DNA of 64,000 nucleotides from contig JAJPHC010000030.1 of the NCBI GenBank assembly GCA_021325515.1, positions 204,976-268,975 on the forward strand, given 5' to 3'. Each line of letters starts with the position of its first letter. Positions within the stretch are counted from its first letter, which is position 1. The translations under genes and the position numbers were made by a program. Positions 8,973 to 12,333 of this stretch are shown in pieces. The notes under the pieces were generated by a model, which ran no database searches, was not told where the DNA came from, and was given only the letters and a program-made list of their open reading frames with translations. The DNA is from Acidobacteriota bacterium (GTDB taxonomy: Bacteria; Acidobacteriota; Thermoanaerobaculia; Gp7-AA8).

Positions 8973-9269
8973 ATGACCAGAATCAAAAAACTGCGGCCCG
9001 CCAAGGCTACAGCCCGCGGCAAGTGGGCACTCCAGGACGCAAAGGCGTGCTTCAGCGAGGTCGTTCGGATGGCGAAGCGTGAAGGGCCGCAACGCATCAC
9101 GGTTCACGGCCGCGAGGAGGTCGTCATCGTCTCGGTGGAGGAATATCGGCGCTCCAAAGGACAGCCTACGGGTGAAGCGCTCGTGCGGCTCCTGCGCAAC
9201 TCGCCTCTTCGAAACGTGAAGATCGAACGGACGCGAACTCGCGGACCGGTTCGGGATGTCGATCTGTGA
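8973..9269 (+). CDS. Phd/YefM-family antitoxin
   Basis: 98 aa. The N-terminal half fits the Phd/YefM DNA-binding fold (WALQDAKACFSEVVRMAKRE, then QRITVHGREEVVIVSVEEYR), and the basic C terminus would wrap the toxin. It precedes a PIN-domain toxin with a GTGA overlap, the classical type II order. A palindrome over the -10 box suggests autorepression. Confidence 0.88.
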   Translation: MTRIKKLRPAKATARGKWALQDAKACFSEVVRMAKREGPQRITVHGREEVVIVSVEEYRRSKGQPTGEALVRLLRNSPLRNVKIERTRTRGPVRDVDL

Positions 9270-9691
9270 CCGCCTGGCTTCTCGATACGAACGTTCTCTC
9301 GGAGCTGCGCAAGCCGAAGCCGGACGCAAGGGTCGTTCACTTCGTCGCTGCGCAGCCGCTCGATCTGCTTCACGTCAGCGTCGTTACCTTTGCCGAGATT
9401 CGCTTCGGCATCGAGCTGATCAAGGATGCCGCTCGCCGGATGCAGCTGAACGAGTGGCTCGACCACAAGCTGCGGCCCATGTTCGAGCACCGTGTTCTCG
9501 AGATCACCGAAGAGATCATGCTGAAGTGGCGGCTGCTCGTCGAGGAAGGCCGAAAGAGCGGCCACACATTCGCGCAGCCAGATCTAATCATCGCCGCCAC
9601 CGCGATTCATCACGGCTTCACGATCGTCTCGCGCGACACATCGGAGTACGAGCTGGCGAACGCCGCTGTCGTCAATCCCTGGTCGATGTGA
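9266..9691 (+). CDS. vapC: PIN-domain toxin, VapC type
   Basis: 141-aa predicted Mg-dependent RNase toxin. The acidic PIN residues are all present: Asp in LLDTNVLSEL (residue 7), Glu in FAEIRFG (about 45), Asp in QPDLIIAATA (about 109) and Asp in VSRDTSEYE (about 127), so the protein looks active. The GTG start overlaps the antitoxin stop codon (GTGA). VapC toxins usually cut tRNA or rRNA; the target here is unknown, although two tRNA genes lie directly upstream. Confidence 0.9.
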   Translation: MTAWLLDTNVLSELRKPKPDARVVHFVAAQPLDLLHVSVVTFAEIRFGIELIKDAARRMQLNEWLDHKLRPMFEHRVLEITEEIMLKWRLLVEEGRKSGHTFAQPDLIIAATAIHHGFTIVSRDTSEYELANAAVVNPWSM

Positions 9692-10423: not shown

Positions 10424-10469
10424 GACCGCGACTCTGACAGAATGGAGTTGCCGCGGCTAAGCGATACGG

Positions 10470-10475
10470 CATACT
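10470..10475 (+). promoter_or_regulatory. -10 box (CATACT) of the selenoprotein gene
   Basis: CATACT ends 8 nt before the GTG at 10484 and supports that start over the ATG at 10442. Confidence 0.45.
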
Positions 10476-10483
10476 TCCCCACC

Positions 10484-11020
10484 GTGAAACGCTGGCTCCT
10501 TCTCACGGCACTCCTCCTCATCGGCGCGGCCGCCGCGCCGCCTCGCGTTGGCGACGTCGCACCTGACTTTCGTCTTCTCGATCAGAACGATCACGTCGTC
10601 CGCCTCTCCGCTGCGCACGGCCACAAGGTCGTGCTCGTCTTCTATCGCGGCTTCTGGTGACCGTACTGCGTCCGGCAGTTGGTCGGACTTCGCGATCTCG
10701 CCCGCATGTTTCCCGACGCTCGAATCTTTGCGATCAGCCGCGACAAGCCGGAGGAGAGCAGGAGCCTCGCGAAGAAGATCGAGTCCGACCATCGCGGGCC
10801 GCTCGGCGTCGCCCTGCTGTCCGATCCCGAATCGCACACGATCGATCGATACGCGCTGCGCGATCCCGAGTATGCGAAGCAGAAGATCGACGGCGTTCCT
10901 CGCCCGTCCGTGTTCGTGCTCGATCAGGAAGGCCGCGTGCGCTGGCAGAAGATCTCGGCCGACTACCGCGAACGCCCGTCTGTCGAGGAAGTCGCCGCGG
11001 CGCTCGATGCGTTCGACTGA
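10484..11020 (+). CDS. peroxiredoxin-like protein, probable selenoprotein (in-frame TGA read as Sec)
   Basis: Read through the TGA at 10658-10660, the gene encodes 178 aa: a signal peptide (KRWLLLTALLLIGAAAA), then an AhpC/TSA thioredoxin fold (RVGDVAPDFRLLDQNDHVV). The TGA sits exactly where the catalytic residue of a CxxC-type peroxiredoxin belongs: FYRGFW-U-PYCVRQL, giving a UxxC motif. The frame continues for 120 more conserved residues (SRDKPEESRSLAKKIESDH, GVPRPSVFVLDQEGRVRWQK) to a TGA stop. A hairpin starts 10 nt after the TGA (GTCCG/CGGAC around a 9-nt loop GCAGTTGGT, 10670-10688), as expected of a bacterial SECIS. Product probably periplasmic. The alternative is a Cys-to-stop nonsense mutation, but the precise location and the intact downstream frame argue for Sec. 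The 3' end overlaps the ankyrin gene by 58 nt. Confidence 0.8.
10670..10688 (+). promoter_or_regulatory. candidate bacterial SECIS hairpin
   Basis: Five base pairs GTCCG/CGGAC close a G/T-rich 9-nt loop. A GCG/CGC extension with a bulge is possible below. It lies inside the coding region right behind the in-frame TGA, where SelB-binding elements sit in bacteria. The distance of 14 nt from TGA to loop is slightly short. Confidence 0.45.
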
Positions 11021-12333
11021 AGGTTGTCGCATCCGTCTTTGTCGCCGCCGTCGCACGCGCGGCGGAACAGCGCCTGCGCCTTCGCTTCGCTCTTCGCGAC
11101 GCCGCGCCCTTCCTCGAACATGATGCCGAGGTTGTTGCAGGCGAAGGTCTCTCCGGCGTCGCAGAGCGGCTCGTAGAGCATCGCCGCCCGCACGGGATTG
11201 GCGGCCACGCCCTTCCCCTCGTCGTAGTCCCACGCCAGCGAACCGCACGCGTCGTTGTCGTGATCCGCGCACCGGAACTCGGCGACGGCGAACTTGCGCT
11301 GCTCCTCAGTAGCGCCGGCGAGGCGCCGGCATGGTCCGCCCGCGTCGAGAAAACGGACGATGCTCCGGCGGCCTTCGACCCAGATCCTGCTGCTCTCCTT
11401 CTGGAGTCCCTCGCGCGCGATACCCAGCGGCGTCGAGCCGGAGTTGTCATGGTCGCCGGGATCGAGCCCGCACGCACAGAGCAGTGCGAGGACATCGAGA
11501 TCGCTGCGCAGATTCTGCGGCGATTGCGCGGCGAGATGCAGCGCCGTTCGTCCCTGATCATCGTGCGCCTTTGGATCAGCACCGCGCGCCAGAAGCATCG
11601 CCATGTCTTTGACATTGCCCGCCGCGGCGAGCAGCGGCGTCTTGTTGTGGCGGTCGCGCGGATCGATCTCCGCGCCATGATCGAGGAGCTGCGTGATCGA
11701 TCCGGTATGGTCTCCATGCACCATGACGGCGTAATGCAGTGCCGTATGCCCGTAGTAGTCCTTCGCTTTCACGTCCGCGCCATGCTGCAGCAGTAGCGCG
11801 ACCGCCCGCGCATCCTCCGCATGCGCCATCAGCGGCGTCCGCTCCAGATCATCCTTCACGTTGACCGATGCACCGTGCGCCAGCAGCGCCCTGACCACGG
11901 CCTCGCGGCGCAACGAGTACGACTCTCCGTGGGATCCGTTCTCCCCGGCTGCATGGAGCGCGGTACTGCCGTCTTCGAGATCCGCATCCACCATCGCCCC
12001 ATTCTCGAGAAGAAACTCGACCACCTCGGGATGCAGCCCCTTCGCCGCGGCGTGCAGCGGTCGATTCACGATCGCCGCGTCCCGGCGCTGAATCGAGTTG
12101 ATGAAGAGCGGCTGCTCCCTGGCCATTCGCTGCACCGTCGCGAGATCGCCGCTGCCCGCCGCGGCGATGAACGCCTCCATCACCTTCGACACACGCCACG
12201 CCCGGATCCCGGTGAACAGCAGATAGCCGCCGAGCGAGAGCATGACGAGCGCAGCAACCATCGCCGGCTTCTTTCTCGTCAGTGCGACGAGGAGGCCGAT
12301 GACTGCCAGCACGATCCCGATGACGATCTTCAT
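10963..12333 (-). CDS. membrane-anchored ankyrin-repeat protein with Sel1-like tail
   Basis: 456 aa. Two N-terminal hydrophobic helices (residues 3-20 and 24-44) anchor the protein. Residues about 90-330 hold six to seven ankyrin repeats (RPLHAAAKGLHPEVVEFLLE, TALHYAV, TALHLAAQ with linking LLxHGAD turns). Residues about 355-440 form Sel1/TPR-like repeats with regular cysteines (FACNNLGIMFEEGRGVAKSE, then RACDGGDKDGCDNL), as in Hcp-type cysteine-rich proteins. Such proteins mediate protein contacts; the partner is unknown. The 3' end overlaps the convergent selenoprotein gene by 58 nt. Confidence 0.85.
   Translation of the reverse strand: MKIVIGIVLAVIGLLVALTRKKPAMVAALVMLSLGGYLLFTGIRAWRVSKVMEAFIAAAGSGDLATVQRMAREQPLFINSIQRRDAAIVNRPLHAAAKGLHPEVVEFLLENGAMVDADLEDGSTALHAAGENGSHGESYSLRREAVVRALLAHGASVNVKDDLERTPLMAHAEDARAVALLLQHGADVKAKDYYGHTALHYAVMVHGDHTGSITQLLDHGAEIDPRDRHNKTPLLAAAGNVKDMAMLLARGADPKAHDDQGRTALHLAAQSPQNLRSDLDVLALLCACGLDPGDHDNSGSTPLGIAREGLQKESSRIWVEGRRSIVRFLDAGGPCRRLAGATEEQRKFAVAEFRCADHDNDACGSLAWDYDEGKGVAANPVRAAMLYEPLCDAGETFACNNLGIMFEEGRGVAKSEAKAQALFRRACDGGDKDGCDNLQSNASSAAATSSTDGRSR

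Follow-up and report, generated by a model that had tools for sequence, protein, structure and literature searches.

A predicted peroxiredoxin-like UxxC selenoprotein, with a conserved in-frame TGA and a covarying SECIS hairpin, in the acidobacterial class Thermoanaerobaculia

Results

The locus and its reading frame

The window, by which we mean the whole stretch of 64,000 nucleotides that was analysed, contains at 10484-11020 a predicted selenoprotein gene in a single frame of 178 codons, interrupted only by an in-frame TGA at 10658-10660 and continuing for 119 codons after it. The features of this region are as follows.

8973-9269: antitoxin-like ORF (translation only)
9266-9691: PIN-domain-like ORF (translation only), MTAWLLDTNVLSELRKP
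10442, + strand: in-frame ATG, alternative start of the selenoprotein gene
10484-11020, + strand: predicted Prx-like selenoprotein gene; GTG start, TGA stop at 11018-11020, 178 aa with Sec59
10484-10543, + strand: hydrophobic N-terminus, probable signal peptide; approximately residues 3-20, after K-R
10658-10660, + strand: TGA codon, predicted to be read as selenocysteine 59, in the motif R-G-F-W-U-P-Y-C
10667-10669, + strand: Cys62 codon, putative resolving partner of Sec59; invariant in 68/68 aligned relatives
10670-10688, + strand: putative bacterial SECIS hairpin; 7-bp stem GTCCGGC/GTCGGAC, loop AGTTG at 10677-10681
10904-10906, + strand: Pro141 codon, at the place of the Prx active-site Arg and at the cis-Pro position of the thioredoxin fold
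10963-12333, - strand: convergent ORF

Judged from their translations, the two short ORFs at 8973-9691, upstream, resemble a type II toxin-antitoxin module, and the product of the convergent ORF has ankyrin-like repeats and, C-terminal to them, a Sel1-like part; the ends of this ORF and of the selenoprotein gene overlap. Relatives align at the gene itself only, and we observed no conserved neighbour genes within 1.5-2 kb, so that no redox partner is indicated.

The original prediction held that a gene caller would split the frame into two fragments, and standard ORF calling did return one ORF of 72 aa at 10442-10660 and another of 113 aa, with a TTG start, at 10679-11020. The read-through protein matched PF00578 (AhpC-TSA) with 92.7 bits (cut-off 26) over residues 22-154, a span that includes the TGA at residue 59, and a Redoxin profile with 61.1 bits. 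The segment to the 3' side of the TGA is stop-free in all three forward frames, so that the open downstream frame is weak evidence by itself. Comparison of the window gene with six same-family relatives gave dN values of 0.25-0.40 on both sides of the TGA (0.25-0.34 downstream) and dS values that were mostly ~0.7-1.4, again on both sides, which argues that purifying selection has acted alike upstream and downstream. At the level of sequence, this conservation excludes a read-through frame that is open by chance, and it bears out the claim that the two sides of the TGA belong to one conserved frame.

Codon 59 among relatives

We searched 148 related genomes and scanned named genomes with patterns that left codon 59 free. 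In the aggregate, TGA was observed at codon 59 in 99 homologous loci, corresponding to ~89 distinct genes when copies common to both searches are subtracted, and TGC or TGT in 7 loci. Within the family of the source organism, seven more genomes carry the gene, and TGA occurs in all six that can be read at this position (7/7 with the window gene included); the seventh locus, L031, begins past codon 59 at a contig end. In their core, the six readable loci match records of Thermoanaerobaculia, 'gp7' Acidobacteria and other Acidobacteriota MAGs identically, which assigns the window to that lineage. At the level of the class, TGA was found in 26/26 genes read, these being the window gene and 25 further homologues. 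The scan of named genomes yielded 80 loci (73 TGA, 5 TGC and 2 TGT), mostly from Acidobacteriota and also from Rokuibacteriota, Gemmatimonadota, Myxococcota and others. The alignment of relatives, which had been suggested as a check for Cys or Sec, displays the pattern expected of a bacterial selenoprotein, namely UGA where relatives have Sec or Cys; relatives carry the first Cys of a CxxC motif there, in agreement with placement of the TGA at the first redox position of UxxC.

These observations bear on the possibility that the TGA is a real stop, either in a pseudogene or between two short genes, with the downstream part decaying or independently started. The two ORFs obtained by standard calling, the second with its TTG start at 10679, are consistent with such an arrangement. 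However, the TGA is the same in 99 loci, dN is well below dS to either side of it, in several phyla the stop falls exactly where CxxC has its Cys, Cys codons being its only replacements, and the hairpin that follows it covaries, as described below. We regard a true stop at this position as extremely improbable.

Selenocysteine machinery in the source genome and its relatives

The source assembly is 99.84% complete, and a whole-genome search of the kind originally proposed recovered intact selA, selB and selC (tRNA-Sec) together with selD, the set expected of a genome that encodes a bacterial selenoprotein. The match to selA scored 392 bits (E 3.5e-117) and that to selB, which is an intact ORF of 628 aa, 374 bits (E 1.7e-111). 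One tRNA-Sec, with anticodon UCA, was found by covariance model (69.8 bits); a second tRNA hit, on contig C10, was ruled out as a second tRNA-Sec and is a tRNA-Ser(UGA). In the selD gene (L010, G000:C2:290240-291178) a TGA lies in frame within the active-site motif GGUACK, and the SelD protein is probably a selenoprotein as well. Two canonical peroxiredoxins with T-x-x-U, TPVU in L056 (G000:C16) and TPGU in L057 (G000:C20), are probably two further selenoproteins of this genome.

SelA was present in 139/148 relatives of the source genome and in 108/109 of the better genomes, and nearly the whole of this acidobacterial class appears to use Sec. Among genomes with a TGA-containing homologue, 14 of 15 have SelA, as against 3 of the 7 with a Cys-containing homologue, a fourth having a weak match (Fisher p = 0.02 for TGA-form vs Cys-form genomes). 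The TGA-carrying genome that gave no SelA match, G162, is a draft assembly of unstated completeness.

The reading frame alone would formally permit a UGA that is read as Trp, Gly or Cys, through a code change or a suppressor, and also an assembly error for TGC or TGT. Yet the selenoprotein gene itself ends with TGA, so that TGA is not globally reassigned; the genome has a complete set of Sec machinery, and the covariance model identifies the UCA-anticodon tRNA as a full tRNA-Sec. With regard to error, TGA is found in all of the same-family assemblies, and a base error at this codon is very unlikely because the genomes that hold the six same-family genes were assembled separately. Recoding to another amino acid, or a misassembled Cys codon, is in our estimate very improbable.

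A SECIS hairpin to the 3' side of the TGA

A hairpin soon after the TGA had been predicted, together with a bSECIS check of the segment 10655-10700. Such a hairpin was observed within that segment, at 10670-10688, with a UGA-to-loop spacing of 16 nt and an MFE of -11.4 kcal/mol. The bSECIS model given in Fig. 2 of PMC13188914 specifies a loop of 3-9 nt, a stem of 4-16 bp, a spacing of 16-37 nt, G in the first two loop positions and an MFE of at most -7.5; the hairpin, with G then U in its loop, lies within all of these limits and fits the published model. Rfam gave no bSECIS match at the locus, as is expected because bSECIS elements are diverse. Taken by itself, the hairpin of the window gene is unexceptional, as 132 of 2000 synonymous recodings (6.6%), and up to 15%, fold as well, and an unconstrained 66-nt fold of the window sequence favours another hairpin in which the UGA is included. 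This alternative should melt once a ribosome holds the UGA in its A site. Judged on the window gene by itself, hairpin strength is a weak test, and the case for a SECIS element therefore rests on data from the family.

Among 25 aligned Sec genes, 89.7% of cells were paired, vs 11-45% for slid partners. Double-sided stem changes were observed in 17 cells, vs 8.3 in shuffles, and none of 500 shuffles reached 17. The loop codon in these 25 genes is Leu TTA or TTG in 22, Val GTT in 3 and CTN in none. TTR was used at the loop Leu in 22/22 Sec genes, compared with 21% of the other Leu codons of those genes (p = 2e-14), and in five close Cys homologues the loop codon is CTT or CTG (0/5 TTR, p = 1e-5), these p-values being guides, since the sequences are related and independence is overstated. 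The window gene itself uses TTR in 0 of its 19 Leu codons outside the loop. In most of the five close Cys homologues the stem is broken.

In summary, we consider it highly probable that 10484-11020 encodes a selenoprotein. The predicted U-x-x-C selenoprotein is strongly supported by the Sec machinery, by the conserved TGA with its Cys alternatives and by the covarying SECIS hairpin.

Protein fold, active site and location

An AlphaFold2 model built with 68 relatives had a mean pLDDT of 94.4, with lower values only in residues 1-20. Residues 19-178 of the model match peroxiredoxins, the match to Bcp4 (3hjp) having Z 24.1 and rmsd 1.7 over 153 residues (VIA-align) and that to AhpE having Z 23. 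The predicted fold is that of a peroxiredoxin. The catalytic motif P-x-x-x-T/S-x-x-C with an active-site Arg is absent. Relative to the canonical peroxiredoxins of the same genome, Pro is replaced by Arg55, Thr by Sec59 and Arg by Pro141, and Cys62 falls at the peroxidatic Cys or Sec of their TPGC, TPGU and TPVU motifs. Among the 68 relatives, R55, W58, position 59 (Sec or Cys) and C62 are invariant, and position 141 is Pro in 61/68 and Arg in 0/68. A W-C-x-x-C sequence together with a cis-Pro is a thioredoxin-type arrangement. The name peroxiredoxin, as originally proposed, stands for the fold and is probably wrong for the chemistry, since P, T and R of the Prx site have been replaced.

The N-terminus of the window protein reaches a hydropathy maximum of 2.29 over 15 residues, and similar stretches are seen in nine relatives. 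Two homologues, L033 and L036, have no signal peptide and carry three hydrophobic, probably transmembrane, segments ahead of the redox domain, an arrangement that supports an extracytoplasmic domain. The redox domain probably lies outside the cytoplasm; the claim that the protein is exported is supported by the hydrophobic N-termini, short of proof.

Discussion

Proposed function

With a W-C-x-x-C-type site and a cis-Pro in place, and the peroxiredoxin P, T and R replaced, disulfide exchange appears to be the likelier chemistry, and we are inclined, with some reserve, to view the product as a predicted envelope thiol:disulfide oxidoreductase rather than a peroxidase. Translation would pause at UGA 10658, and the hairpin at 10670-10688 would recruit SelB loaded with Sec-tRNA-Sec, with insertion of Sec at residue 59. 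The product, with its peroxiredoxin-type thioredoxin fold, would be exported or envelope-anchored. Sec59, placed where the active-site helix begins, would serve as the nucleophile, form a selenenylsulfide with Cys62 and be re-reduced by a thioredoxin-like donor. Outside the cytoplasm the enzyme would reduce or exchange disulfides, or other forms of oxidised sulfur, and peroxide reduction is a possible side activity.

The same selenoprotein might instead be a true (seleno)peroxiredoxin in which Cys62 or Sec59 reduces envelope hydroperoxides. Sec reacts readily with peroxides, the peroxiredoxin fold extends over the whole domain (Z 22-24 to Bcp4, AhpE and PrxQ), and Cys62 occupies the peroxidatic place of the genome's own enzymes. 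Yet only the Cys remains of P-x-x-x-T-x-x-C ... R, the Arg being found in none of the 68 relatives, and the described family is named Prx-like thiol:disulfide oxidoreductase in PMC1794560 and PMC13188914. A peroxidase is, on balance, the doubtful assignment. This question concerns function only, and leaves the selenoprotein reading as it is.

Relation to known selenoproteins

The gene adds a member to the already described Prx-like UxxC selenoproteins, which have been listed since 2005 (PMC1088965, with 22 genes; PMC1794560; PMC5029168; PMC13188914, Table 1). These Prx-like thiol:disulfide oxidoreductases belong to pfam00578, have UxxC or UxxU, and include the Sargasso Sea 'Prx-like protein' and proteins of Geobacter and other deltaproteobacteria. 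The window protein has in common with them the AhpC/TSA domain, a Sec-first UxxC and the absence of TxxU (PMC1088965, PMC1794560, PMC13188914); it is a pfam00578 protein with U-P-Y-C in place of the peroxiredoxin TxxC/TxxU, a likeness drawn from domain and motif; the reference member of the family is WP_010940744.1. It differs in that its acidobacterial class is absent from the available parts of the published descriptions, and in its probable signal peptide.

Canonical Sec-peroxiredoxins (TxxU), of which the source genome has two, share fold and domain family with the window protein. In those enzymes Sec is peroxidatic and is surrounded by Pro, Thr and Arg, whereas in the window protein Sec is at the place of the Thr and the Arg is lost. 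SelL-related proteins (NF040769) share a Trx-fold redox domain, and 68/68 aligned relatives match that model to some degree; the window protein scores 42.9 bits vs a cut-off of 120, and it has Cys rather than Sec as the second residue of the active site. The ResA/TlpA thiol-disulfide oxidoreductases are exported, as the window protein probably is, and share with it W-C/U-x-x-C and Pro at the cis-Pro place; in contrast to them, the window protein is nearer to peroxiredoxins in fold and in PF00578, and the ResA model NF002854 gives 30 bits vs a cut-off of 170. No NCBIfam model that would name the window protein scores above its cut-off, and the plasmid collection yielded only relatives at 33-35% identity.

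It had also been suggested that this gene would extend selenium use to the lineage. A 2006 study (PMC1794560) had already attributed 4 selenoproteins to Acidobacteria, and that paper and passing mentions are the literature we found on acidobacterial selenoproteins. The suggestion fails for the phylum on this account, and the SelA counts given above point the same way for the relatives; it retains some force for the class Thermoanaerobaculia, for which we found no paper on selenocysteine in the literature available to us.

Probable conversion of Sec to Cys

On a tree of 99 homologues, the Sec/Cys label requires four changes. Five Cys genes from Blastocatellia / Pyrinomonadaceae (L081, L082, L084, L086 and L090) are nested deep in a Sec clade, and all five have CTN in place of the TTR codon of the SECIS loop; the genomes of L086 and L090 gave no SelA match. 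Such nesting argues that Sec gave way to Cys there at least once and that the SECIS loop was lost with it, and on this phylogenetic evidence conversions in Blastocatellia are probable. A review calls this direction rare and documented mainly for FdhA and SelD.

Thermoanaerobaculia-type Acidobacteriota are known largely from metagenomes. The broader picture would be of a class with near-universal Sec and under-annotated, Sec-first, Prx-folded enzymes of the envelope, and of some Blastocatellia that have reverted to Cys; for this picture as a whole we see the chances as evenly balanced. The near-universal SelA of the class and the probable conversions in Blastocatellia are the less expected of our results.

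At the locus itself, two truncated gene calls are corrected into one enzyme. Beyond it, full Sec use is indicated for a widespread acidobacterial class. Aerobes rarely keep selenoproteins, in the view put forward in PMC13188914, and such acidobacteria, if they are aerobic soil organisms, would test that view. The alternation of TGA and Cys codons, with matching loss of the SECIS element, provides a natural series on Sec gain and loss.
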